From Vulgatibacter incomptus (GTDB lineage Bacteria; Myxococcota; Myxococcia; Myxococcales; Vulgatibacteraceae), in contig NZ_CP012332.1 of the NCBI RefSeq assembly GCF_001263175.1, positions 1,857,501 through 1,921,500 on the forward strand: 64,000 nt of DNA, given 5' to 3'. Position numbers and translations under genes: made by a program. Positions 9,333-57,757 of this stretch are shown one piece after another. The notes under the pieces are model-generated. The model saw nothing but the letters and a program-made list of their open reading frames with translations. It was not told where the DNA came from and did not search any database. Position 1 is the stretch's first letter, and every line of letters begins with the position of its first letter.

Positions 9333-10790
9333 ATGCGCATCCTTGCCTGCTGCATGGCGTTCGCGGTCGTTCTGACCGCCTGCTCCGGCCGTCCGCCGGC
9401 CAACCACACGAATCTGCCCGGAGACGAGGGACCCTGTGCGGGGCTCCCGTTGCGCCACGAGGCATTGGCGCAGAACGGCGCCAGCCTGGCAGGGGCGACG
9501 AAGGGAAAGACCCAAGTCGTCGGGCCGAGCTGGATCGAGCACGGAATGGGGGCGGCGACGATTCCCTTCGAGGGATATGTCGACGGCTTGGAAGGGCTCC
9601 TGCTCATACAGGATCGTGCCGCCCTCGACGCCGTCGAAGGATGGGAGCGGATCGCCGAGAACGTGGAGGTCGACTGGGACCACCAGACCCTCGCGTTGGC
9701 GCTCGGATTTCCTCCCGAGCACGAGCTCCGGCTCGTGCGGGACGGCGACCGCCTCGAGCTCCACGTGAGCCGTCCCATCGCCTGCATCGGCGGGGAGGAT
9801 GTGTCGACTCCGGACTTCTTCTCCGTCCAGGTCCAAGCCTACGTCGTTCCGAAGGTGTCGACCGCGACCGTGGTGTTCCACGACGGGCGCTACCGCGTCC
9901 CGACCTTCCAGGAGGACGGCACCTGCCGGCGCGATCCGGATGCCCCGGTTCTCGGAGGCGGCGGCCGAGTCTCGGTCCTGAAGGAAGGAGACGCCTTCCG
10001 CATGTGGTACGAGGGTTATAGCGCCAACACCGGAAACGTCTTCGACACGCGCTCGCTCGACGGCCTTGCCTGGACCCCGGGGGGGTGGGACTTCGACCAC
10101 CTCAACCACTTCGGGGACCGTGGCCCCTACGCGGAGGTGTACGGTCCCATGGTGCTGCCCCGTCCCGACGGCTACTGGATGTTCTTCACTGCCTCCGGCT
10201 TCGGTGTAAACCCGGCTCGAGGGGTCCGGCGGGTCTCGTCGGTCGACGGTCTCCAGTGGACCGACGAGGTGCCCGTGATCGAGCTCGAGCCCTTCGACGA
10301 CACCAAGCGGAGCGCCCTGCGGACTCCCTTCGTCCTCGAGCACGATGGTCGTTTCTGGCTCTGGTACGCGTCCCTCGAAGGCGACGAACGCAGCGCCATC
10401 GCGCTCGCCGTCTCCGACGACGGGGATTCCTGGACTCCCGCAGGCGACGGCCCCGTCCTGCTGCCGGGGGCACCGGGCTCCTTCGACGAGGCCGGCGTCT
10501 TCTCGCCCGCCGTGACCTTCCACGATGGCCGGTTCGTGATGTGGTACCAGGGCGCCTACGGGGGCCACCCGACTTCCCCCTTCTATTCGGCCCTCGGCGT
10601 CGCCACCTCGCCCGACGGCATCCACTGGACCCGCAAGGAGCAACCGATCCTCGTCGCCCGAGGCGGGTTCGAAGGCGGCAAGCTGACCGGCCCGCGGCCC
10701 CTGCTCGACGAAGGCGGCTACCGCCTCTGGTACACCGGGATCAGCGACCGGCACGAGCCATCCATTGCCCACGCACGCTGCCGCTGGTAG
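9333..10790 (+). CDS. Lipoprotein with five-bladed glycosidase-like beta-propeller
   Basis: A 485-residue lipoprotein beginning with a short signal peptide and lipobox 'VLTAC'. ATG 9333 was chosen over upstream in-frame starts because of this and a GGAG eight to ten bases before it. The C-terminal 300 residues repeat the blade signature of GH43/GH32/GH68-type propellers: 'FRMWYEG', 'YWMFFTASG', 'FWLWYASLEG', 'FVMWYQGAYGG' and 'YRLWYTGISD', with recurrent 'DG..WT' turns. Such folds bind or cut carbohydrates, but the acidic catalytic residues cannot be assigned by eye, so it may only bind sugars. The N-terminal 200 residues are unrecognised. It is alone on the plus strand, transcribed away from the patatin gene. 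Confidence 0.72.
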   Translation: MRILACCMAFAVVLTACSGRPPANHTNLPGDEGPCAGLPLRHEALAQNGASLAGATKGKTQVVGPSWIEHGMGAATIPFEGYVDGLEGLLLIQDRAALDAVEGWERIAENVEVDWDHQTLALALGFPPEHELRLVRDGDRLELHVSRPIACIGGEDVSTPDFFSVQVQAYVVPKVSTATVVFHDGRYRVPTFQEDGTCRRDPDAPVLGGGGRVSVLKEGDAFRMWYEGYSANTGNVFDTRSLDGLAWTPGGWDFDHLNHFGDRGPYAEVYGPMVLPRPDGYWMFFTASGFGVNPARGVRRVSSVDGLQWTDEVPVIELEPFDDTKRSALRTPFVLEHDGRFWLWYASLEGDERSAIALAVSDDGDSWTPAGDGPVLLPGAPGSFDEAGVFSPAVTFHDGRFVMWYQGAYGGHPTSPFYSALGVATSPDGIHWTRKEQPILVARGGFEGGKLTGPRPLLDEGGYRLWYTGISDRHEPSIAHARCRW

Positions 10791-10896
10791 GCGAGAAGAG
10801 CCCGAGCCATCAGTCTGACTTGGCGTGTTTGGTCCTTTCCGGAGTTGGCCGAACGGCTTCCTCCCTCGCCCGGCACGGTCGTGAGGCCGAGGACTC

Positions 10897-13800
10897 TCAA
10901 AGCCCCGCCGCAGCGAACTTTTCGCCACGGATCTCGTCGTAGATCCGCTTCACGAGCAGGCGGAACGCGAGGTCTTGGAACTGGGAATCGTTGAGGTACC
11001 GGGTCACGATCTCCTGGTTCTGATCCATGCGATCGACCATCAGCCCTTCGACCTTGCCCTTCATCGCCAGAGCGAAATTGTCGAGCGGGTTGGCCTTCGC
11101 GCGCTGGACGACCTCGTCGTCGAGCTTCGCGGCGGCGACGAACTGGTCGAATAGGATCTGGTCGGCCTGGTCGAACTCGGTGCCGAAGCGATCGTTCAGC
11201 ACGCCGATGATCTCCGAGAGCTGCGCCTCGTCGTCCTTGGCCTTCCTGGTACCGACCTCGGTCGCGCCGAATACGACGCCGGGCTCGGCGGCACGCAGGG
11301 CGATGGCGCCCTCGCTCAGCTTGTCGAGGCGGTAGTACTCGAGCGCCACGTCGCCATCGAGCGATAGCGGACCCTTCTTCGGATCCTGCGGCAGCTTCGT
11401 CTCGAAGTAGCGCGCGAACGTGTAGAGCTTCTCGAGGTCGGGATCCGAGAACGGCATGATCTGCGAGAGGAAGGCGTAGAGGCGCACGAATGCCCCGAGC
11501 GCGTTCTTGAACTCCTCCCGCGTCGCCTCCTCGAGCGCCTTGAACCGGTCGACGCCCGGATTCAGGTGACGGTTCATCTCGGCCTGGTCTTGGACCGACT
11601 GCTTCTCGCGCGGCGAGAAGAACACCTTGCAGAAGGCCTCGACCTCGGAGAGCCAGAAGACCTGCGCACCCTCGAGCCGATGCGCGAGGTCGTAGAGCTG
11701 CTGCGGCTCGGCGCTCTCCGCGACGGTCGTCGCCTCGTAGTAGGGCTGGAAGCTCTGCTGGATTTCCTCGGTGTCGTTGACGAAGTCGAGGACGAAGGTG
11801 TCCTGCTTGCCGGGCGCTGTGCGATTCAGGCGCGAGAGGGTCTGCACGGCCTGCACGCCGGAGAGCCTCTTGTCGACGTACATCGTGTGAAGCAGCGGCT
11901 GGTCGAAGCCGGTCTGGTACTTGTTTGCAACCAGGAGGATCTGGAAGTCGTCGCCGTCGAACGCGCCGGGCAGGCCGGCCTCGGAGATGTGCTTGCCGAC
12001 CTTGTCGACGTTCATCCCTGGCTCGGTGAATTCGAGGTCGGAGGCGGGATCCTTCACGATGCCGGAGAACGCGACGAGCACGCCGATGTCGCCGTAGCCC
12101 TTCTCCTTCAGGTAGGCGTCGAAGGCCTGCTTGTAGCGGACGGCGTGGAGGCGCGAGCTGGTGACGAGCATCGCCTTGGCGCGACCGCCTAGCTTGTGCC
12201 GCACCTTCGTGCGGAAGTGCTCGACCATCACCTCGGTCTTCTGTGCGACGTTGTGCGGGTGCAGGCTCATGAAGCGCGCGAGCTGCCGCGTCGCCTCCTC
12301 CTTCGGCACGCGAGGGTCGTTCTCGGTCGCCTTCACGAGCCGATAGAACGCCTTGTACGTCGTGTAGCTCTTCAGCACGTCGAGGATGAAGCCCTCCTCG
12401 ATGGCCTGGCGCATCGAGTAGAGGTGGAACGGGCGTGGCTTCCCCTCGGCGTCGCGATGGCCGAAGATCTCGAGCGTCTTCGCCTTGGGGGTAGCGGTGA
12501 ACGCGAAGTACGACAGGTTCCTCTGCCGGCCGCGCGAGGCCATCACCGCCGCCAGCACCTTCTCCTCCGAGTCGTCTTCGTCGCCCGCTGCGTCGAGCCC
12601 TTCCGCCTCCTCGAGCGAGGTCGCCGCGAGCACCTGCTTCATCTTGCGCGCCGACTCACCGGTCTGCGAGCTGTGCGCCTCGTCGACGACGAGGGCGTAG
12701 CGCCTGCCCTTCAACCCACCGATCCGTTCGAGGATGACCGGGAACTTCTGGAGCGTCGTGATGATGATGGGCGTGCCGCCCTCGAGTGCCTTGGCGAGCT
12801 GGTCCGAGTGTTCGTCGATCTTGGCGACGACGCCCTGCTTGTGCTCGAACTGGTAGATGTTGTCCTGGAGCTGCTTGTCGAGCACGCGGCGGTCTGTGAT
12901 GACGACGACCGAGTCGAAGACCCGCGCGTCCTTCGCGTCGTGGAGGCTCGCGAGGCGATGCGCGAGCCACGCGATGCTGTTCGACTTGCCGGAGCCGGCC
13001 GAGTGCTGGATGAGGTAGCTGTTTCCCGGTCCATCGATGCGCGCGGCCGCCTCGAGCCTGCGCACGGCGTCGAGCTGGTGGTAGCGCGGGAAGACAATTT
13101 TCTCCTCCTCGACCTTCTTTCCAGCGCGCAGCTTCTCCTCCTTCGCCAGGTGGAGGAAGCGCCCAACGATGTCGAGGAACGAGTCGCGCTGCCAGACCTC
13201 CTCCCAGAGGTAGGCCGTGCGGTAGCCGCTCGGGTGCTCGGGGTTGCCGGCCCCGCCGTGCGCGCCCCGGTTGAACGGCAGGAACGTCGTGCCCTCGCCG
13301 GCGAGGCGCGTCGTCATGAACGCGTGATCGGGATCGACGGCGAAGTGGACGAGCGCGCGGAGCTTGAACTGAAGCAGCCGATGACGCGGATCACGGGCGC
13401 GGTACTGCGCGATCGCGTGCTGAACCGTCTGCTGCGTGAGCGGGTTCTTCAGCTCCACCGTCGCGATCGGCAAGCCGTTCAACGACAGCATGAGGTCGAT
13501 CGACTGATCTTCGTCCTTGTGCCCGCTGGGCGCGAAGCGGACCTGGCGCGTGACGGCGAGCCGGTTCTCGGCGTAGGTCGCGACTACGTCCGGGTTCAGG
13601 CCGTGCGCAGGCTTGAAAGTCGCGCAGTCGAGCTTCTTCCCGAAGAACTTGAGCCCATGCCGGAGCACGTCGAGCGTGCCCCGGCTGTCCAGCGCCTTGC
13701 ACAGCGTGTCGAGCACGGCGGCTTCGAGCCCGGCGCCGTGCTGCGCACGCAGCTCGGCCCAGAGCGCGGTCTGGGTGGCCTCGAAGAAGGCGAAGAGCTC

Positions 13801-46911: not shown

Positions 46912-47952
46912 CTAGCCGACCTGGATCCCGTCGCGGGTGGAGCCCTTCACTCGGTACATCGCGAGGTCCGCCCGGCGGAGGAGCTCGTCCGCGTCGGCGG
47001 CGTGCTCCGGAAATGAGGCCACCCCGAACGAGGCCGTCAGCCGAAGACCGCCGGCCTCGGACTCGAGGAAGGCGCGGGCCTTGAACCGCTCCCGAACGCG
47101 CTCGGCGAAGGCCAACGCCTCCGCGCTCGTGGTCTCGGGCAGCAGGCAGACGAACTCGTCGCCGCCGTAGCGGATCGCGATGTCCGCCGGACGGATCACC
47201 TGGAGCAGCTCCTCCCCGCACTCGCGCAGGATGGCGGAGCCGGCCTGGTGTCCGTGGCGATCGTTGACCTGCTTGAAGCGATCGAGGTCGAAGAAGACCA
47301 GCGAGAGGTCGTGTCCGAAGCGCCGCGCCCGGAGGATCTCGGCGTCCAGCGATCGGAGGAGGTGGCGCGCGTTGTAGAGCCCGGTGTGCTCGTCGATGAT
47401 CGTGAGCTCCTCGACCCGCCGGTAGTTGCGCGCGTTCTCCAGGGCGATGGCGGCGAAGTCGGCGATCGAGCCGAGGACGCGGACGTCCGCCTCGTCGAAG
47501 GGCGGCTGCCCCCTGCCATTCACGAGCTCGATGACGCCCAGGGTCCGGCCCTTGGAGCGCATCGGCACCGCGGCGATGGAGCTCGTGCTGAAGCGGGTCG
47601 CCTCGTCGAAGCGCGAGGCGAAGCGCTCGTCCTGGCTCACGTCCGCGACGAGCAGCGACTCCTTGCGGGACGCGACCCAGCCCGCGATCCCTTCCTCCGC
47701 GCCGATCCGAAGGCCCTGAAGGGACTCCGAACCCGGCCCCACGGCCACCTCGAAGAAGAGCTCGCCGGTGATCTCGTCCACCAGGAGCAGCGACCAGTTG
47801 GTCGGCTGGAGCAGCTCCCCCACCTTCTCCATGATCAGCCGGAGCACCTCGCGGATATCCAGGGTCGACGTCAGCGCCTTCCCGATCTCGTTGTAGGCGT
47901 GGAGCTCGTCCACGTTACGCTTCAGCTCTCTGAGAAGCTCTTCGGCTTCCAT
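46912..47952 (-). CDS. GAF-GGDEF diguanylate cyclase
   Basis: A cytoplasmic 346-residue signalling protein. A GAF sensor domain spans about 20-175, followed by the cyclase domain, with the active-site loop 'RYGGDEF' (263-267) and the inhibitory I-site 'RPAD' (254-257). Both are intact, so it is probably an active cyclic-di-GMP synthase with product feedback. The GAF domain lacks an obvious chromophore Cys; its ligand is unknown. It is convergent with ppiD and divergent from maf. Confidence 0.9.
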   Translation of the reverse strand: MEAEELLRELKRNVDELHAYNEIGKALTSTLDIREVLRLIMEKVGELLQPTNWSLLLVDEITGELFFEVAVGPGSESLQGLRIGAEEGIAGWVASRKESLLVADVSQDERFASRFDEATRFSTSSIAAVPMRSKGRTLGVIELVNGRGQPPFDEADVRVLGSIADFAAIALENARNYRRVEELTIIDEHTGLYNARHLLRSLDAEILRARRFGHDLSLVFFDLDRFKQVNDRHGHQAGSAILRECGEELLQVIRPADIAIRYGGDEFVCLLPETTSAEALAFAERVRERFKARAFLESEAGGLRLTASFGVASFPEHAADADELLRRADLAMYRVKGSTRDGIQVG

Positions 47953-48072
47953 GATCGTCGCGTCGCTCCGGGCGGATCGCAGGGCGTCGAGGCAGGATGG
48001 CTGCTACAACCGGACGCGGCGCCAGCCTACCTTGGGCGCCTTCTCCGCTCAATCTCAGACACGAGACCCACC

Positions 48073-48654
48073 TTGCCCGACCTCTCTCCTCCCTTCCTCC
48101 TCGCCTCGGCGTCTCCCCGCAGGCGCGAGCTCCTGGCGGGCGCCGGCTTCTCCTTCGTCGTGGCGGTTCCCGGGATCCCAGAGGACATCGAGCCGGGAGA
48201 GGCGCCCGACGCCGCCGCGCTCCGTCTCGCGGGAGAGAAGGCGGAAGCGGTCCGTGTCTCCCGGCCGGACGCGGTCGTGCTCGCCGCCGACACGGTCGTG
48301 GTCCTGGACGGCCGGGCCCTGGGCAAGCCACGGGATCCGGACGAGGCCCGCGCCATGCTCCTCTCGCTCTCCGGCCGCACCCACGAGGTGGTGACGGGGG
48401 TCTCGATCCGAGCCCCGACCGCCGTAGAGGAGCTCGTCGCGAGGACCCAGGTGCGCTTCCGCCCTCTCGAGCGGGAGGAGATCGACCGCTACGTCGCGAC
48501 GGGAGAGCCGATGGACAAGGCGGGCGCCTACGGGATCCAGGGCGGCGCCGCGAGCTTCGTCGAGGCCATCTCCGGCTCCTACACGAACGTCGTCGGCCTC
48601 CCCCTGGCGGAGGCCGTGATCTCGCTCCGCAGCCTCGGGGTCCTCCCCGGCTGA
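48073..48654 (+). CDS. maf: Maf-family nucleotide pyrophosphatase
   Basis: Maf proteins hydrolyse non-canonical nucleotides such as m5UTP, dTTP or m7GTP and affect septum formation. The 193-residue protein has the start motif 'LLASASPRRRELL', 'VLAADTVVVL', 'GKPRDPDEA', 'SGRTHEVVTGV' and 'DKAGAYGIQGGA'. TTG 48073 is the only start near the conserved N-terminus; the frame stays open upstream inside the opposite-strand GGDEF gene region. The ribosome-binding site is weak. A strong hairpin follows. Confidence 0.9.
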   Translation: MPDLSPPFLLASASPRRRELLAGAGFSFVVAVPGIPEDIEPGEAPDAAALRLAGEKAEAVRVSRPDAVVLAADTVVVLDGRALGKPRDPDEARAMLLSLSGRTHEVVTGVSIRAPTAVEELVARTQVRFRPLEREEIDRYVATGEPMDKAGAYGIQGGAASFVEAISGSYTNVVGLPLAEAVISLRSLGVLPG

Positions 48655-48707: not shown

Positions 48708-51700
48708 CTACCGGTAGTGGAAGTACATCGACTGCCCGGACCGGAACCCATCCTCGTACTCGAACGACTCGAAGCCGCCGATGGCGAAGACCCCTGCCGA
48801 GGCGTCGTCGAAGTACTCGGGTCCGCCGGCGATCTCGTCGTAGGCGAACACGATGTCGCCCCCCTCCCATAGCTGGATCTGGAACGTGAGGGAGCCCTCT
48901 TCGTAGTACCGCTTGAAGCCCGTCCACTGGAGGATGAGCACATCGGAGGGCCCCACGGTCATCACCTCGTACTGGAACTTCGAGCCCGGCTGATCGGTGA
49001 GGTCGGCGTCGTACACGCGGAGGATCCCGCCGTCCCAAGCGGGCCACCACCAGTCGTCCAGGAAGTAGGCCGTGCCATCCGCCTGGACGTAGACCGTGGT
49101 GACCGGATCGCTTCCACCGTAGTAGGGGAAGTGGAACGGGATGCCTCCCGGGATCTCCGCCTGGCCGTAGTCCGAGTTCACGTCCGGGAGCTCGGTCCCG
49201 GTGGCCGAGATGTCGATGAAGGGCTTCGTCGAGTAGAAGTCGACGTCGTACTCAGAGTAACAGTCGACCCCACCCGCTCCGGGCGACCCCAGGTCGCCTC
49301 CTTCGCCGTAGGTCGAGGTCGAGACACACCAGGCGAACGAAGGGGTGAGGTCTCCCGCCTGGCGCTGCGTCTGCCAGGTTCCGTCGAGCGCGAGCGACGC
49401 CCCATGCGGGATCGTCCACCACGAGTTCCACGCGACCTGGCTGATCGGAACGCCGCCGAGTCCGATCGAGAGATCCCCTTCCGTCGAGTCGAGGGTGATG
49501 TCGTCGTAGACGTAGTCGGGCGTGAAGCCCGGCGAGTCGCTGGCGGCGAAGGTGAACCAGGCACCGGACGCGAGGAGGAGCGGACCGCCCGACTCGATCA
49601 CGTGGGATTGGTCGCCCGACCAGATGACCATCCCCTCGAGATCCATGGGCGCCGGCGAGAGGTTCCGAATCTCGAACCACTGGGCGGTGGGGCCACCCGA
49701 GGGATCGATCTGGAGCTCGGTGATCGCGACCAACCCGCGCGGCAGGACCTCGACGACGATCGTCTGGCAGTCGATGTCGCCCGTCGTCTGGGCGCAGATC
49801 ACGATCCGTCCATCGCGCCCCGGGCTCACCTGTGCCGACCCGGTCGCATCACGAGCTCCCTCGAAGCGCCACGCGCGGTTCGAGAGGCCGCCCGCCATCG
49901 CCCGGTTGTAGCTCAAGGTGGAACCAATCTCGCCAGAGGGGTCCTGGTAGCCGACGGTGGCGTTGCCTCCGTCGGCCCGCTCCTGGTCGGGTCCCATCAT
50001 CGCGCCGTAGCGGAACTCGAAGCTCCCATTCGGGAAGAGGATCACCTCGAAGTTCAGATTGGCGCCCGGCGCGGGCCAGTCGTAATACTGAACGCCCTTC
50101 CACTGGATCACGAAGCGATCCTGACCACCGTCGTCGAGGAGCTGCGCGTAGACGTGGCCCGTCTCGTAGGAGTGGAGATCGTCCCAGAACGGCGCGAGAT
50201 GCACGCCGGGGTTCCAACTGGACGGGAGGCGGTCGTGGTACGCCAACGTCCCCTGCTCCGGGTCGAAGCTCAGGAAGCCGTCGGACATCACGCGAACCGC
50301 GGTCCTGTCCTCCCCAGCGAACGGAAACGTGAAGCCGTTCGGGAAGTACACGTCCTCGGCGGCGGAATCCGCGTCGATGAGCCACGTCAGCTCGGTTCCG
50401 GTCGCGCTGATGTCGATGAAGGGCGCCTCGTCCGGATCGAGCTCGTCGAGCGCCGTGCCAAAGATCAGGACCGACACCGGATCGCCCGACGGGGAGCTCG
50501 CGCTCCACGAGACCGTCGTCGATCCACCTACGACGATGCGGGAGTCGCCAGCGCTGGCGGCGTCCAGCTGGACGCGCAGCACACGCACCGAGCGCCGCTG
50601 CGTGAAGCTCCGGCCGTCCTCTCGGGCGATCGTGAGCTCGTAGATCGTGGAGACCTCCGGAGCGGCGACGTAGGTATCGCTCGAGAAGTCGTATCCGGAG
50701 ACATCGAGCGGGAGGCCGTTTGCCGTGAGCGTGAGCGTCTCCGCGCCGTGGGTGAGCCAGGCGAGCGTGGTGGAGCCCCCCGGATCGATCACATCATCGG
50801 CGACCTCGAACGAATCGAGGCCGAACGGCACCCAGACCAGTACCTGGATCGTACGGCTCGCCGTCGAGCCCATGGCGCCGGTCGCCTCGACGGTAATGGT
50901 CTTGGCGCCCTCCGTGGCATCCGGGAAGGTGCAGGTTCCCTCGTCGAGAACCTCACCGGGTCCCGATATGCACACGACTCCCGTCTCGTCGGAAACAGTG
51001 ACCGTAAGAGCGTCGCGCGCGATCCACCGGACTTCGAAGGTGTCGCCCACGTCGACGTCCGCGGGAGCGGAGGCCGAGACGATTACCACGGGCTGCTCGA
51101 CCGTCACCGTCGTGGTCGCTGTGTGTTGGGTTCCGTCGTAGCCGTAGGCGGTCAGGGTGTAGACCTGGGTGGCGCTCGGGCTCACGATCGCGGACCCGTT
51201 GGGTCCGAGCGACGGATACGCGAAGCGGTATCCGGTACCCTCGAGATCCGGAACCTCGGTGCTGTAGGAGATCGTGGTCCCTTCCGAGCCCGAGGTGTTC
51301 TGGTAGCCGATCGTCGCGTTGTCCCCGCGGGCCCGCGAGAGATTCTCGTCGCTCCACATGGAGTCGTATCGGTATTCGAAGCTGCCGTCCTCCCAGAGCA
51401 CGATCTCGAAGTTGAGATCCGCGGGGTTGCCGGAGAGCTGGACGTGGCTCCACTGGACCACGAGGTACTGCCTGCCGTCGTCGCCCACTCCGACGTCGTA
51501 GAGGACGTCGCCGGTATCGACCCTGTCGAGATCGTCCCAGAACGCCGCGAGGTGCACGTAGCCGACGTAGTCGTCAGGGAGCTCGTAGTGGATGAAGTTG
51601 GACCCCGTGCGCTCGAGGTCGAAGCTGATCAATCCGTTCTCGTAGATGCGGGCCCGGGTGCGATCCGCCCCGTCGAACGGGAAGGCGAAGCCATCGGGGA

Positions 51701-54407
51701 AGCTCACGAGGGGGCAGCCCTCGTCGAGCCAGCTCGAATCGCAGTTGTCGAGGGGCGTGGTCCGCGCCGTCGCGCTTCCGCTCACGTCGATGAAGGGCTC
51801 GGTCGTCCTCTCGATGGAGTACCCGCGGGGCACGTTCACGTCGATGTGCGAGACGCCCCGGGTCTCCCACGTGAGCGTCGACGTGGTGCCCGCCAGGATC
51901 TGATCCGGCGTCGCCACGAATGAGACGATCTCCGCCTCCACCATGTCGACGTACGCCGAAGCCGTCACCTGGGCGCCGAGCTCGTTGGTCGCGATGGCAC
52001 GCCAGGCCGAGGCCACCTCCGGGCTGACCTGCAGGCTGCCACTACCGGCGGCGACCTGCGCAGGCGTGGCGACGAAGATCTCCGTGCCCTCGTTCCCGTC
52101 GGGGTCCAGCGCCTCGATTCGCAGCGAGGTCGCGTGAGCCGCGGTCCACGAGAGGGTCATGGGGATTCCCGAGCCCGGATCGTAGGACGGCGTGCTGGCA
52201 GCGAGCGTCACGGTCGGCGCATCGAGGACCTCCACGGACACCGTCGCCGTCGAGGGCGCGTACCCGGGGGTCGAGGCGGTCAGCGTGAACGTGCGGTCGC
52301 CGACGGCAGGGTGCACATCGAGCGATCCCTGGGCCGGCAGGCCTGCGATGGGGTACGCGGTCCCGAGGTCGTCGACGAGGGCGAGCTCTGCCGCGACCCC
52401 GCTCGCGTCGGTGCTCACGTCCCAGCGCAGGCTGACGCTCTGACCGGCGGTGATCCGCGGCGCGCTCCGGGTGAAGGAGGCGATCACGGGGCCGCCCTGG
52501 ACCGAGATGGTGATCGATCGCCGGCCCTCTCCACCCACGCCGTTGGTGACCACGAGCTCGTAGACGAAGTCGCCCGCCGCGGTCGGCGCCGCGACTGCGC
52601 AGGAGCCTCTGGCGACCCCGCCCAGGACCGAGGTCGCGCACGCCGGGATCGGGCCGTCCGGCCCCTCGACCCAGAGCACGATCCCGCCGAGGTTGACCCA
52701 CGAGAAGGTCACGGTCTCACCCATATTGACCGTCGTCTTGTCGGTGTCGAACGAGACGACGATGGGCGCGCCCACCGACACGGCGAGCGCCTGTTCCACG
52801 AGGTCGCCCGCCTCGTTCATTGCGCGGAGCGTGAAGGTGGAGTCCGCGGCGATCTGGGCGACGTACGTCCCTGTCGTGAGATGGGCCTCCACGGACAGCT
52901 TCGCGCCGTCCTGGAGCAGCTCGACTGCGGTCGCGCCGGTCGTCGTCCAGGCCAGCTCGAAGGACTCTCCCGCGCCGACCCGTGCAGGAGTCGCGGTGAA
53001 GGAGTCTACGATCGCCGGGGCCACCACGCGCACCGCCGCCATCGCGGTGGAGTTGCCCGCGGCGTTGGTGGCGGTGAGCACGAAGGCCGTGTCGACCGAA
53101 ACCTCCACCTCGACGGAACCGCTCTCGGCGTCCCCGGCGATCTCGACCACGCCGCCGGGCATCGCCTCGATCGTCGCGTGCGCACCAGGACTCGCGCTCC
53201 AATCGAGACGGACGAGGGCCGGTTCCACCGTCGTCGCGGTCACGAGCGACGGCGTCGCAGTTAGGCTCGCGTGCTCCGGAGGATGTAGCACGGGCACCGG
53301 GAGGAGGGTCGTCACCTCCTCCGAGCCGAGCTTCGCCACGAGGGAGAAGACGCCGCCGGTTCCCACCGGTGCGGCGAACGTGCCCTCGCTCCGAGCGCTC
53401 TCGGGGATATCGGCGATGAAGCCCTCGAGATTGGAGACGGTCAGGCTCTCGGCGCCCCTCGTCGTCCATCTCAACGGCAAGAGGTCTCCGGCGAGGACAT
53501 CCCCGTGGAACTCCGCCTCGAACGACGTGATCACCGGCAGCACACGCACCGTCACAAACGCGTCGACACTTCCGTCCCCGAGCGAGGCGACGAGCGAATA
53601 GGTCGTGGTGCGCGTGGGCGCGACGGTCGCCTCGCCCGCAGGACCGTCGCCTTCTGCCACAGTGGCGCCGAAGCCGTCGCCGATGGTCACGTGGACCGCG
53701 CCGGTCACGTACCAGGAGAGCACGGTCGTCGAGCCGAAATCGATCGCGCCGCTCGCTGCGGCGAATTCCACCCTCGGATCACTTCCCTCGACCTCCACCT
53801 TCACGCTCCGGCTCGCCACCTCCTCGCCTCGCTTCGCCTCGAGGGTGTAGGTCGTGGTCCGATCGGGGTTCACGACGATCGATCCCTCGCCGGGACCGGC
53901 GCTGCCGAGCTCCAGGTCGTGCCCCGCTCCGTCGTGGATCCGAATCGAATCGGCGTTCGTGGTCGTCCACGCGAGGGTGGCAGGCTCGCCCGGCGCCACC
54001 TTCGCGGGGGTGGCGGTGAAGGAGACCACCTGCGGGCCCTGAGCGCTTCGGACGGTCACGGTGACCGAGCCCTTCGCCTCGAGATCGCGGGCTCCAATCG
54101 CGGTCAGCTCGTAGGTCGTGGAGGCGCTCGGGTGGACCTCGACGCGCCCGTCGGCGGCCGGAGCGCCGCCGAGATCGATCTCGTGACCGCTGGCGTCGAC
54201 GAGGAGGAGCCGGAGCGCGTCGCGGGTCTTCCAGGCGATCTCCGAGGTCCCTCCGGCGTCGATCACGGGGGGATCGGCGCGGAGCTCGAGGACCTGCGGC
54301 GGGATTTCCTTGGCGCCCGAGCCTTTCTTGCCACCGCACGCGGCGATCAGCAGGAAAAGTGGCAGAACAAGTGACTTCGCGTGAAACCGGAACCGGAGAC
54401 AGCTCAT
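48708..54407 (-). CDS. Giant surface lipoprotein with about 13 Ig-like modules, nidogen-like repeats and a lamin-tail domain
   Basis: A 1899-residue lipoprotein. The signal peptide ends in the lipobox 'LLIAAC', and the ATG at 54407 has GGGAGG upstream. About ten Ig-like modules (roughly 30-870), each opening with a 'V.SF.ATP..V..GE...L.WTT.GA..' pattern, are followed by a nidogen-like module, three more Ig-like modules (about 1085-1330), and a second nidogen-like module. A lamin-tail domain follows (about 1556-1715: 'ITELQIDPSGG', 'WFEIRNLSP') and a third nidogen-like module ends the protein. Each nidogen-like module is preceded by a 'PFIDISATGTEL'-type tag (about 869, 1329, 1729) and contains 'HLAPFWDDL' and 'LNFEVILF' motifs. 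The layout suggests an adhesin or matrix-binding protein. It diverges from the peptidase/barrel gene. Confidence 0.82.
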   Translation of the reverse strand: MSCLRFRFHAKSLVLPLFLLIAACGGKKGSGAKEIPPQVLELRADPPVIDAGGTSEIAWKTRDALRLLLVDASGHEIDLGGAPAADGRVEVHPSASTTYELTAIGARDLEAKGSVTVTVRSAQGPQVVSFTATPAKVAPGEPATLAWTTTNADSIRIHDGAGHDLELGSAGPGEGSIVVNPDRTTTYTLEAKRGEEVASRSVKVEVEGSDPRVEFAAASGAIDFGSTTVLSWYVTGAVHVTIGDGFGATVAEGDGPAGEATVAPTRTTTYSLVASLGDGSVDAFVTVRVLPVITSFEAEFHGDVLAGDLLPLRWTTRGAESLTVSNLEGFIADIPESARSEGTFAAPVGTGGVFSLVAKLGSEEVTTLLPVPVLHPPEHASLTATPSLVTATTVEPALVRLDWSASPGAHATIEAMPGGVVEIAGDAESGSVEVEVSVDTAFVLTATNAAGNSTAMAAVRVVAPAIVDSFTATPARVGAGESFELAWTTTGATAVELLQDGAKLSVEAHLTTGTYVAQIAADSTFTLRAMNEAGDLVEQALAVSVGAPIVVSFDTDKTTVNMGETVTFSWVNLGGIVLWVEGPDGPIPACATSVLGGVARGSCAVAAPTAAGDFVYELVVTNGVGGEGRRSITISVQGGPVIASFTRSAPRITAGQSVSLRWDVSTDASGVAAELALVDDLGTAYPIAGLPAQGSLDVHPAVGDRTFTLTASTPGYAPSTATVSVEVLDAPTVTLAASTPSYDPGSGIPMTLSWTAAHATSLRIEALDPDGNEGTEIFVATPAQVAAGSGSLQVSPEVASAWRAIATNELGAQVTASAYVDMVEAEIVSFVATPDQILAGTTSTLTWETRGVSHIDVNVPRGYSIERTTEPFIDVSGSATARTTPLDNCDSSWLDEGCPLVSFPDGFAFPFDGADRTRARIYENGLISFDLERTGSNFIHYELPDDYVGYVHLAAFWDDLDRVDTGDVLYDVGVGDDGRQYLVVQWSHVQLSGNPADLNFEIVLWEDGSFEYRYDSMWSDENLSRARGDNATIGYQNTSGSEGTTISYSTEVPDLEGTGYRFAYPSLGPNGSAIVSPSATQVYTLTAYGYDGTQHTATTTVTVEQPVVIVSASAPADVDVGDTFEVRWIARDALTVTVSDETGVVCISGPGEVLDEGTCTFPDATEGAKTITVEATGAMGSTASRTIQVLVWVPFGLDSFEVADDVIDPGGSTTLAWLTHGAETLTLTANGLPLDVSGYDFSSDTYVAAPEVSTIYELTIAREDGRSFTQRRSVRVLRVQLDAASAGDSRIVVGGSTTVSWSASSPSGDPVSVLIFGTALDELDPDEAPFIDISATGTELTWLIDADSAAEDVYFPNGFTFPFAGEDRTAVRVMSDGFLSFDPEQGTLAYHDRLPSSWNPGVHLAPFWDDLHSYETGHVYAQLLDDGGQDRFVIQWKGVQYYDWPAPGANLNFEVILFPNGSFEFRYGAMMGPDQERADGGNATVGYQDPSGEIGSTLSYNRAMAGGLSNRAWRFEGARDATGSAQVSPGRDGRIVICAQTTGDIDCQTIVVEVLPRGLVAITELQIDPSGGPTAQWFEIRNLSPAPMDLEGMVIWSGDQSHVIESGGPLLLASGAWFTFAASDSPGFTPDYVYDDITLDSTEGDLSIGLGGVPISQVAWNSWWTIPHGASLALDGTWQTQRQAGDLTPSFAWCVSTSTYGEGGDLGSPGAGGVDCYSEYDVDFYSTKPFIDISATGTELPDVNSDYGQAEIPGGIPFHFPYYGGSDPVTTVYVQADGTAYFLDDWWWPAWDGGILRVYDADLTDQPGSKFQYEVMTVGPSDVLILQWTGFKRYYEEGSLTFQIQLWEGGDIVFAYDEIAGGPEYFDDASAGVFAIGGFESFEYEDGFRSGQSMYFHYR

Positions 54408-54619
54408 GCAACCTCCCGGATCCACACCTGATTTCAAGACATGAGCCTGAATGGGCCGTATCCCGAACGGGTGGAATCATCCGAACTCGACGAGGAGCTA
54501 GGAAAACTCGGCGCTACTTCCATGTCAAACCGTTGAACCGCCGAGGGGCGGTAGCGCTCGCTCACCGAGGGGGCGGAACCGCATCCGGGAGGCGCCCGGT
54601 CGAGCCGTTGCCGCTCGGG

Positions 54620-57600
54620 ATGGGGCGCCCTACCGTGTCGGCACCGGTCATTCGAAGCCTCGAGTGCCGGATCGCAGGGCCCTTCGTGCGATCAGCCCGA
54701 CTCTTGCCGCTCCTTGCCGTGCTGCTCGGATGGCCTGGCCCTGCCGTTGCTGCCCCCCTTCCGTTCGCGCGGGAGGGCGGCGGTCCCAGGCACCCGGGCC
54801 TCGGTCTCGCGCTCCCGGCGCTCCAGCCTCCCGGGGCGCTGCCGGAGGTCTACGTCGTTCCACGAACCCCCGGCCAGAACCAGGTGCGGTGGTACGGATT
54901 CAAGTTCAAGGAGGTGCTGCTCCCGCAGCTGCCCGGCGCAGGTGTTCGTCTCTTCTACTATCAGTCAGAGACGAAGGCGGCAGAGGTCGCGGCCGGCGTG
55001 ATCCGCGAGCAATACATGCAGCTGGCCCGGGCCTTCGACTACGTCCCGGAGCGAGAGGTCCCCTACGTCCTCTACGCCACCCACCTGGAGTTCCAGGCCA
55101 CCAACCTCTTTCCGATCAGCGAGGGCGTCCTCGGCGTCACGAGCCCCAGCGAGCTCACGCTCACCCTCCCCTTCTTCGGCGATCTGGAGCAATACCGGCA
55201 CACCTCCACCCACGAGCTCACCCACGAGTTCACGATCCAGATCGTGCGCTCGGCCGGTGAAGCGGCGGGGAGGCCCGGCGGCCTCGGAGGCTTTCCGCTC
55301 TGGTTCATCGAGGGACTGGCGGAGTACGCGGCCTACGGCGGCATGGATCCGGACGGCAAGCCGGGGCCGGAGCCCCGAGGCGCTTCGGGCCCTTCGCTTC
55401 CGGGCCTCGATCCCGACACCGAGGCATGGGCGCGGGATCTTCTCTATCGATCCTCGCCCTTCGAGGGCTACCTGATCCCGCCCTTCTACTCCGACTATCC
55501 CATGGGGTACGTCCACACCTACAAGCTGGGCCAGCTCCGGGTTGCCTTCATGGGCGCCACCTTCGGCAGGGAGCTCATCATCTGGCTGCTGAAGAACGCC
55601 AGCACCATGGGCCTCGCCGACGAGCGCGGCGCGGGCGTGAAGTTCCCCGAGCTGGTGAAGATGGGCACCGGCTACGACAAGGAGACGATCGAGAGGCTCT
55701 TCGCCGACTGGATCCAGCGGCGCTACCTGCCCGCCTACGACCAGGCCCGGACGCGGGTTCCCTCCCTCCAACCGATCGACAACGTCCCGGTCGAGGCCGA
55801 GCTGGTCGTGGCCTCGCCGGACGGCAAGACCCTCCTGATGCGCGGCTTCGATCGGGAGCTCGGCGAAGGCTCGCTCTGGCTGCTGGAAGGGGACAATCCC
55901 GGCAAATCGCAGCTCGTGGTCAGGGACTCCCGCCCGGGCCTCGAGTCCCTCCACCTGATCTCCCGGCGGACCTTTGCGCTCGGCAACGAGCGGATCGCCT
56001 GGATCGGCCGCGCCGGCGAGGCTGACGTGCTCACCGTGGCGCGCCTCGAGAAGCCGCCGGAGGGATCGAGCGACCTCTTCCGAATCACCGACCGACGCTC
56101 CTTCGAGCTGGTGAAGCACCACATCCTCGAGGGCGGAGATCCGACCTTCTCTCCGGACGAGCGGCGGATCGCGTTCTCGGGAGTTGACACCAACGGTTTC
56201 AAAGACGTTTACATCATGGACGTGGACGAGGGATTCTCGTCCCTGCGCCGTGTGACCCAGGGGCCCTTCTCCAAGAGCGGCCTGTCCTGGACCGCCGACG
56301 GGATCTACCTCGCCACCGACGCGGCTCCCGACGGCGACGCCAACATCGGGCTCCTGGATCCCGAGACCGGCGCCATTCGGGTCGTGGTCGCGGACCGCTC
56401 GATCAAGGAGTGTCCGGTGCTCACACCGGCCGGGCTCGTCTACGCTTCGAACCTGGGCGGGCGGTGGGATCTCTACCGGATCGAGGATGGGGTCGCCTGG
56501 AGGATCACGGACGTCTCCACGCTGATCCGCTCGCCGGCCGTGGGCGCCAAGGGAAGCCTCTACGGGATCATCGTGCACGGCGGCCACTTCCGCCTGGCGC
56601 GGCTCCCCCCCGTGGAGATCCTCCGGCTCGACGGGAGGCCCCCCATCGCCGCGGACTACGATCCCACGCCTCGCCCTCTCCCGATCCTCCGACTGCCCGA
56701 GGTGGCCCCCGAATACAGGCCCTTCGATCACTTCGGCATCGACATGGGCGGCATCCAGGTGGGGACGCAGACCGTGGCCGTCGGCGGGATCTCGTTCTCG
56801 GACCTGCTTCGCGATCGCCTGCTCGCCGTCCAGCTCGCCGTCTACGGCAGCCTCGACTTCACCGACGCCAGCGCGATCTTCCTCGACCGTTCGCAGCGCA
56901 CCACCTGGCTCGCCGGGATCTTCCATACCTTCCAGCCCAAGCGCGACCGCACCTTCGGCACACCGGCGCTGCCGGACAACCCCGACTTCTTCCTGGAGCG
57001 GGAGTTCGGCGCCATGGGCGGGCTCTCCTACCCTTTCAACCGCTTCGAGCGCATGGACGTGCTGCTCACGGTGGAGGGCGTCCACCGCTCGCGATTCACC
57101 GACCGTCGCGGGACCCGAGACGCAGCGTGGGAGGAGCTCACGGGCGGGAACGACCTGCAGCTCCTGGCCACCGCGGGCTACGGTCTCGACACCCTCCGCT
57201 ACCACCCTTTCGTCGGCCCCATCTCCGGCTCGACCGTGCTGTTCGCGGCGGGCACCTCCATCCTGCCGCAGCGCCTGAACGTCGGGGGGGCTGGGGTGAA
57301 CGGCTGGGCCGAGTTCGACCTCCAGCACTTCTTCTACCTCGGCGCCCGCTCCACCTTCTGGACCCGGGCCGCCGCCGGCTCCGCGTTCGGCGGCCGGTTC
57401 TCGCGCCAGTTCTACCTCTCCAGCGTCGACAACCTGCGGGGCTACCACTGGTCCGACGATCGCCTCCTGGGCACCCACTACTACGTGGCGAACGCCGAGC
57501 TCTCGTTCCCGCTGGACTGGCTGATCCGGATCGCGATCTTCGAGGGTCTGCGCGGCGTCGGGGCGGTCGACTTCGGCGGCGTCACCGACCACTACGAACA

Positions 57601-57757
57601 GCTCCTCGACGCGCGCTCCCTCGACCTCGCGGTGGGCCTGGACTTCCTCGCCGGGCCGCTCGCGATGAGGCTCCACTTCGGCTACCCGATCCAGATCGGC
57701 CCGGTGCTTCCCGCCGACGGCTGGGTGACGAACTTCGCGCTGCGGCTCCGCTACTGA
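54620..57757 (+). CDS. Exported peptidase-MA/beta-propeller/outer-membrane barrel fusion
   Basis: A protein of about 1045 residues. After a signal-like segment (about 25-45) comes a peptidase MA-like domain with the gluzincin zinc site His198-Glu199-X2-His202 ('HELTH') and Glu231 in 'WFIEGLAEY'. A TolB/PD40-like propeller follows (about 380-660: 'PTFSPDERRIAFSG', 'LSWTADGIYLATDA'). The C-terminal third resembles an Omp85/surface-antigen barrel ('RLNVGGAGVNGW', 'NLRGYHW') and ends with the aromatic 'ALRLRY', as expected for BAM-inserted proteins. It would place a metallopeptidase at the outer membrane. ATG 54620 is the best start; GTG 54635 is possible. The 3' end overlaps the convergent 5'-nucleotidase-like gene by seven bases. 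Confidence 0.8.
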   Translation: MGRPTVSAPVIRSLECRIAGPFVRSARLLPLLAVLLGWPGPAVAAPLPFAREGGGPRHPGLGLALPALQPPGALPEVYVVPRTPGQNQVRWYGFKFKEVLLPQLPGAGVRLFYYQSETKAAEVAAGVIREQYMQLARAFDYVPEREVPYVLYATHLEFQATNLFPISEGVLGVTSPSELTLTLPFFGDLEQYRHTSTHELTHEFTIQIVRSAGEAAGRPGGLGGFPLWFIEGLAEYAAYGGMDPDGKPGPEPRGASGPSLPGLDPDTEAWARDLLYRSSPFEGYLIPPFYSDYPMGYVHTYKLGQLRVAFMGATFGRELIIWLLKNASTMGLADERGAGVKFPELVKMGTGYDKETIERLFADWIQRRYLPAYDQARTRVPSLQPIDNVPVEAELVVASPDGKTLLMRGFDRELGEGSLWLLEGDNPGKSQLVVRDSRPGLESLHLISRRTFALGNERIAWIGRAGEADVLTVARLEKPPEGSSDLFRITDRRSFELVKHHILEGGDPTFSPDERRIAFSGVDTNGFKDVYIMDVDEGFSSLRRVTQGPFSKSGLSWTADGIYLATDAAPDGDANIGLLDPETGAIRVVVADRSIKECPVLTPAGLVYASNLGGRWDLYRIEDGVAWRITDVSTLIRSPAVGAKGSLYGIIVHGGHFRLARLPPVEILRLDGRPPIAADYDPTPRPLPILRLPEVAPEYRPFDHFGIDMGGIQVGTQTVAVGGISFSDLLRDRLLAVQLAVYGSLDFTDASAIFLDRSQRTTWLAGIFHTFQPKRDRTFGTPALPDNPDFFLEREFGAMGGLSYPFNRFERMDVLLTVEGVHRSRFTDRRGTRDAAWEELTGGNDLQLLATAGYGLDTLRYHPFVGPISGSTVLFAAGTSILPQRLNVGGAGVNGWAEFDLQHFFYLGARSTFWTRAAAGSAFGGRFSRQFYLSSVDNLRGYHWSDDRLLGTHYYVANAELSFPLDWLIRIAIFEGLRGVGAVDFGGVTDHYEQLLDARSLDLAVGLDFLAGPLAMRLHFGYPIQIGPVLPADGWVTNFALRLRY

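Follow-up and report, generated by a model that had tools for sequence, protein, structure and literature searches.

The window, by which is meant the whole 64,000-nucleotide stretch of Vulgatibacter incomptus DNA analysed here, carries on its minus strand an open frame (gene F) that runs from an ATG at position 54407 to a stop at 48708 and encodes a protein composed of Ig-like domains, nidogen-like modules and a lamin-tail-like domain (Table 1). The N-terminus, MSCLRFRFHAKSLVLPLFLLIAACGG, resembles a lipoprotein signal by eye. The preliminary description had presented F as a 1899-residue lipoprotein; the frame and its length stand as described, and the lipoprotein start is lipobox-like as judged by visual inspection. 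Besides residues 3 and 24, F contains ten cysteines that fall into five near pairs (590/603, 889/898, 1146/1159, 1538/1547 and 1694/1716), which suits an exported, disulphide-bonded protein. Pfam reported six families in F at E ≤ 1, with no RTX repeat family among them, and a scan with NCBIfam returned 0 families.

Table 1. Features of gene F and its tandem paralogues. Positions are those of the window unless a locus is named; aa, residues of the protein.
Feature	Residues	Position	Strand	Basis
Gene F, Ig/nidogen-like, lipoprotein-like	1899 aa	48708..54407	minus	open frame
Signal and lipobox-like LLIAAC	aa 19-24 (LLIAAC), Cys24, Gly at +2	54336..54407	minus	by eye; paralogue starts similar
Nine uninterrupted Ig-like domains, stalk	aa 39-820	51948..54293	minus	Ig profile
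Split Ig 1, N-half	aa 826-860 (profile positions 1-35)	51828..51932	minus	Ig profile
Nidogen-like module 1, within split Ig 1	aa 870-1063	51219..51800	minus	
Tag copy 1, PFIDVSGSATAR	aa 871-882	51762..51797	minus	
Split Ig 1, C-half	aa 1069-1103 (profile positions 48-82)	51099..51203	minus	Ig profile
Two uninterrupted Ig-like domains	aa 1112-1276	50580..51074	minus	Ig profile
Split Ig 2, N-half	aa 1277-1327 (profile match 1286-1314, alone weak, E 0.087)	50427..50579	minus	profile and model
Tag copy 2, PFIDISATGTEL	aa 1329-1340	50388..50423	minus	
Nidogen-like module 2, within split Ig 2	aa 1328-1516	49860..50426	minus	profile and model
Split Ig 2, C-half, with Cys1538/Cys1547	aa 1517-1555 (match 1515-1554, alone weak, E 0.75)	49743..49859	minus	profile and model
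Lamin-tail-like domain	aa 1558-1626	49530..49736	minus	Pfam LTD below cut-off; fold comparison; relatives
Tag copy 3, PFIDISATGTEL	aa 1729-1740	49188..49223	minus	
Nidogen-like module 3, C-terminal, not nested	aa 1728-1899	48711..49226	minus	
Three tandem paralogues	~2700 aa each	L009:2135-10354, L009:10558-18726, L010:1086-9173		

Downstream of F, a gene for a Maf-family nucleotide pyrophosphatase (window 48094-48654, plus strand; the match is the C-terminal part of a frame at 47248-48654) is convergent with F, its stop lying 53 bases from the stop end of F. On the other side, a frame at 54359-57757, divergent to F, matches a beta-propeller repeat (PD40/TolB-like), and its C-terminus is weakly BamA-like. 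A search of 54250-54900 for a promoter-like site found none.

The modules were compared with the Pfam NIDO family (PF06119, cut-off 25 bits). Module 1 lies over the curated cut-off, with 30.9 bits within the whole protein and 26.3 bits alone; module 2 alone reaches 20.1 bits, below the cut-off, and module 3 gives no match, while 13 of the 18 own-genome modules match NIDO at E ≤ 0.1. Only about 50 of the 186 NIDO positions are matched by modules 1 and 2, from ‘NG.ISF’ to the ‘FWDD’ motif, and the match sets in some 45-50 residues past the start of a conserved tag; the tag is thus upstream of the part that Pfam scores, and the Pfam model covers only the core of the bacterial module. The FWDDL and LNFE-type motifs, which the preliminary description regarded as common to the modules, are confined to modules 1 and 2; module 3 instead reads VYDADL and LTFQ. 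Module 1 shares 43% identity with module 2 and 25% with module 3, and the latter two share 30-34%, depending on the alignment used. A six-frame search with PF06119 found a match in one of 40 relatives and none in the window’s own genome, though hmmscan finds NIDO in F. When the module profile was compared with the PDB at E ≤ 1, the sole match was to residues 40-192 of 8gl6 chain D, named RemA (E 3.6e-15). RemA is called a gliding motility adhesin in the title of a publication, and by its name we take this chain to be that adhesin of Bacteroidota. The match starts at profile position 11, so that the tag is barely covered, and the host protein differs from F. A phmmer search of the PDB with one paralogue module gave nothing up to E 10, and profile A3 had no PDB match at 0.01.

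The lamin-tail-like domain, situated between split Ig 2 and module 3, scores 25.6 bits against Pfam LTD (PF00932), below the cut-off of 34.3. At the equivalent place in relatives the scores were 49.9 (L101), 36.1 (L105) and 24.7 bits (L035), two of the five relatives scanned being above the cut-off, and fold comparison of a model of this domain with module 3 listed lamin A/C at Z 5-5.5. The lamin-tail domain reported earlier is here termed lamin-tail-like. The domain that follows it varies, being nidogen-like in F, P_proprotein in L073:2-4300 (where the lamin-tail-like stretch was recognized by eye and has no Pfam match) and choice_anch_J in L101:349-6063. From these sequences, the place after the lamin-tail-like domain is seemingly that of a variable cap.

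Interrupted Ig-like domains and their modules

An Ig profile made from nine seeds and refined from 35 full-length matches in F and its three paralogues identified 11 intact and two interrupted Ig-like domains in F, in agreement with the earlier count of about 13. The two halves that flank module 1 match with E values of 9e-8 and 2.5e-6, respectively, and those that flank module 2, which cover profile positions 7-33 and 42-82, are each weak alone. All 14 internal modules of F and the three paralogues lie within the same Ig-like loop. When the half-domains of these 14 sites were excised and scored apart, 28 of 28 matched the expected part of the profile, some of them weakly (E up to 0.17). Once joined, the hand-cut halves scored 16.2-61.3 bits at all 14 sites, in each case above the swapped order, a mild control in that it leaves each half intact; the highest scores among 700 shuffles and 700 joined module pieces were 10.1 and 4.0 bits, respectively. 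In an unaided scan of the whole proteins, both halves were flagged at two of the 14 own-genome sites and neither at four.

The same arrangement was found in G163 and G164, two genomes of family f10 in the same class, where both halves were flagged at nine of nine internal sites, the N-half ending at profile positions 27-42 (one runs to 56, into the module) and the C-half starting at 41-49 (one with E 0.7). In L073, which is perhaps from the same genome as G164, both halves were flagged at two of two sites. Where a module is C-terminal, as in F, the three paralogues, L035 and one L101 protein, no N-half was flagged ahead of it. In a third family (L105 and L106; G112 and G114), none of the 17 modules, which are spread over nine open frames containing Ig arrays, had a split Ig flagged beside it by this profile, indicating that the module does not need nesting. 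At orthologous positions, no insert-free Ig-like domain was found.

An AlphaFold2 model of split Ig 2 together with module 2, computed from 11 sequences, had a pLDDT of 87.7 and a pTM of 0.87. Solved Ig domains aligned to this model over 71-79 residues in total, the aligned part beginning near residue 1 and ending near residue 279 of the model; the best alignment was to MAG (Z 8.2, 2.8 Å, 77 residues). Since the two ends align together and the residue count is about that of both halves, the model fits a single Ig fold assembled from both ends of the chain; the packing is read here from aligned ranges and counts, Z scores of 7-8 being common background for this aligner. Foldseek gave no E value below 0.001 for either model, the rows for the nested unit being mostly antibody chains with an rmsd over 20 and those for the lamin-tail-like domain with module 3 being weak. 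For module 3, the VIA rows showed a resemblance to segments of amine oxidases and of beta-galactosidase (Z 5-6); as these scores are within background, no fold name is drawn from them. No solved NIDO structure appeared in the Foldseek and VIA lists, which is uninformative. Together, the profile matches and the predicted model make it very probable that modules 1 and 2 are inserted in one loop of an Ig-like domain. The preliminary description was right to call the surface architecture distinctive and missed its main feature, which is this nesting.

Relatives of F and a possible role for the modules

The window’s genome is a single contig of 4.35 Mb, in which three tandem paralogues of F are found at 1.012-1.037 Mb; they have five modules each, against three in F, and show 38-39% identity to F over aligned columns. 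A profile of 18 modules, those of F included, was searched against 195 genomes of the phylum and matched in 82 of them at E ≤ 1e-6. When the whole of F was compared with 30 relatives, six matched at E ≤ 1e-10, and only the sister genome G001 aligned beyond short Ig stretches, over many domains. In G163, three F-like genes with two or three modules each are found in a row (L101). In the third family, seven of the nine frames have a start that is lipobox-like by eye, and in the one frame compared with Pfam a lamin-tail domain separates two modules. A scan of genome collections gave ten loci, five from two Deltaproteobacteria/Proteobacteria MAGs and five from Bacteroidales MAGs, in which the match was limited to the middle of the unit. 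In viral contigs, 26 stretches fitted a pattern and none was confirmed. Two adjacent proteins (L011:6392-9172 and 9351-12101) have a module-like N-terminus and a C-terminus with a cysteine, a hydrophobic stretch and arginine, which resembles a surface sorting signal; they had no NCBIfam match. A literature search found no paper combining ‘NIDO domain’ with ‘Myxococc’ and, judged from the search listings, no description of an F-type protein family.

It is likely that F is displayed on the cell surface. By sequence and model, the chain begins an Ig fold, exits to build the nidogen-like module and re-enters to complete the Ig fold; module 3 ends the protein after the lamin-tail-like domain. The nested module would project laterally from the stalk and leave its far side exposed, as in RTX split domains. 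The far side may bind a ligand, which could be a glycan, a matrix polymer or another cell. By analogy, a role of the nidogen-like modules as ligand-binding heads appears slightly favoured. Nidogen itself is a matrix linker, and it is conceivable, at a clearly lower probability, that the modules instead have a structural or mechanical part in the stalk, as spacers or in branching, stiffening or the self-association of neighbouring stalks. The many modules per protein, three in F and five in each member of a paralogue set within one genome, would suit a coat or matrix layer. However, the use of the same Ig loop at all 14 own-genome sites fits the presentation of heads better, and the 38-39% identity of the paralogues to F suits different ligands as much as drift.

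The tag at the start of each module

A repeated tag opens each of the three modules, at residues 871, 1329 and 1729, with two copies nearly identical, as was seen in the preliminary description. Copies 2 and 3 are in fact identical in protein sequence (12/12), their DNA agreeing at 30 of 36 bases with six differences that are all synonymous, and copy 1 is identical to each of them at six of 12 positions. In module 1, the cysteine pair 889/898 (window 51714-51743) comes directly after the tag; a like-placed pair occurs in other first-position modules, namely B1 and the L026/L032 protein of the window’s own genome, and L035 and L074 of G001.

The occurrence of the tag among homologues was assessed with a tag-less module profile run on the fetched loci, which gave 129 matches, of which 79 unique ones were kept (those starting within the first 12 profile positions and preceded by 30 or more residues). 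The motif [FYW]-x-D-[ILVM] was found directly upstream in 18/21 own-genome modules, 10/12 sister-genome modules and 29/46 other modules, the last being those outside the two family-f1 genomes, where rates are biased upward since these loci were sampled with a tag-containing profile; the corresponding means after shuffling were 1.0, 0.8 and 2.7. A different motif, [FYVIWLE]-D-[IVLM]-[ST], was found in 15/21, 8/12 and 17/46, respectively (shuffled 1.0, 0.6 and 1.8). The tie between tag and module was tested more strongly by a degenerate DNA pattern for F-x-D-I-[S or codon like it]-[AST]-T-G-T, which occurs at 18 places in 12 of 193 genomes, the reversed pattern having 0 matches in the 193 genomes. 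A module core lies 21-36 residues past the pattern at 17 of the 18 places, the two in F included, the exception being L087 in G137.

Of the 79 modules, 57 bear the motif, and the residues seen most often in these along the tag are, in order, P, F, V, D, I, S, T, T, G, T, A and L. Copies 2 and 3 carry the commonest residue of the family at nine of 12 positions. At the remaining three both have I, A and E, against V, T and A, respectively, as the usual family residues; I and A are frequent at these positions and E is found in three of 57 modules. As E is this rare, the consensus does not account for all of the identity between copies 2 and 3, the shared I, A and E going beyond it.

The tag corresponds to residues 53-64 of the model of split Ig 2 with module 2, in blocks with a mean pLDDT of 95 (51-60) and 77 (61-70). 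It forms an extended segment of the module, for which DSSP gives mainly coil and a bridge of two residues, T-E, and the tag of module 3 is alike in a poor model (pLDDT 61.4). The models accordingly do not show the tag as a regular beta-strand, the residues being coil except for T-E in both, and the earlier alternative that it is just the first strand of the fold proved nearly right. The earlier suggestion that the tag may mark the module boundary is borne out, in that it sits at this boundary and recurs in many, not all, homologues in the phylum (29/46 with the broad motif outside the f1 genomes); it can therefore not be said to be absent in homologues. Taken as a separate element, by contrast, it dissolves into the first conserved segment of a module family whose profile is found in 82 of 195 genomes. 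We conclude that the tag is almost certainly part of the module, as its conserved N-terminal segment. It would lie at the point where the chain exits the split Ig and would serve the fold rather than binding; a role as a binding site, also raised in the preliminary description, is unsupported and, under the split-domain reading, unlikely because the tag is placed at the Ig junction, opposite to the expected ligand face.

That the tag could be a separate signal, i.e. a binding, docking or processing motif common to the copies, is accordingly improbable. Such a signal would account for copies 2 and 3 being identical at 12/12 positions though the modules are otherwise 30-34% alike, and for their shared departure from the commonest residues at I, A and E, with E in 3/57; against it, nine of the 12 positions hold the commonest family residue, the 17 of 18 pattern places are tied to a module at a near-fixed distance, and many modules vary the tag, which sits at an Ig junction. 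A recent duplication or gene conversion would likewise yield identical protein words, including the three positions off the commonest residue, and is very improbable, since six synonymous differences in 36 bases indicate no recent DNA copy and a tree built without the tag places module 2 with the nested modules and module 3 with the C-terminal ones (support 100/99; F3 is on a long branch, its exact place being unsure).

Comparison with RTX split-domain adhesins

In RTX adhesins, Ig-like split domains project ligand-binding domains, as described for AhLap, FrhA and MpIBP (PMC12077191, PMC10865825). The order in AhLap is a split Ig, two plain Igs and a second split Ig (PMC10865825). Since F shares this type of order as well as the split Ig, it is proposed that it is a lipid-anchored Ig stalk bearing nidogen-like modules as heads, which, of the explanations considered, is the best overall and is regarded as reasonably probable. 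A wider reading is a good deal more speculative, according to which F would belong to a widespread, unnamed family of lipid-anchored stalks in this phylum, the split Ig domains would be sockets for exchangeable nidogen-like heads, and the tandem paralogues a surface recognition repertoire for kin, prey or matrix, as the lipoprotein counterpart of the split-domain heads of RTX adhesins.

The tag is ordinary, and the nested architecture is a variant of a known split-domain arrangement. Its description provides a testable anatomy for surface proteins that are only partly named by the family libraries used and, should the split-domain rule of RTX adhesins apply here as well, the nidogen-like modules are the parts to screen for ligands. 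F is similar to the split-domain RTX adhesins in its tandem Ig-like stalk (11 intact domains) and in the domain that emerges from a split Ig-like domain, and to AhLap in the two plain Ig-like domains between two split ones. It differs from RTX adhesins in the lipobox-like N-terminus at the anchor end, in having no RTX repeats by Pfam and in the nature of the insert, which is nidogen-like in F, whereas the inserts described for RTX adhesins are PA14, carbohydrate-binding, peptide-binding or RTX domains (PMC12077191, PMC10865825).
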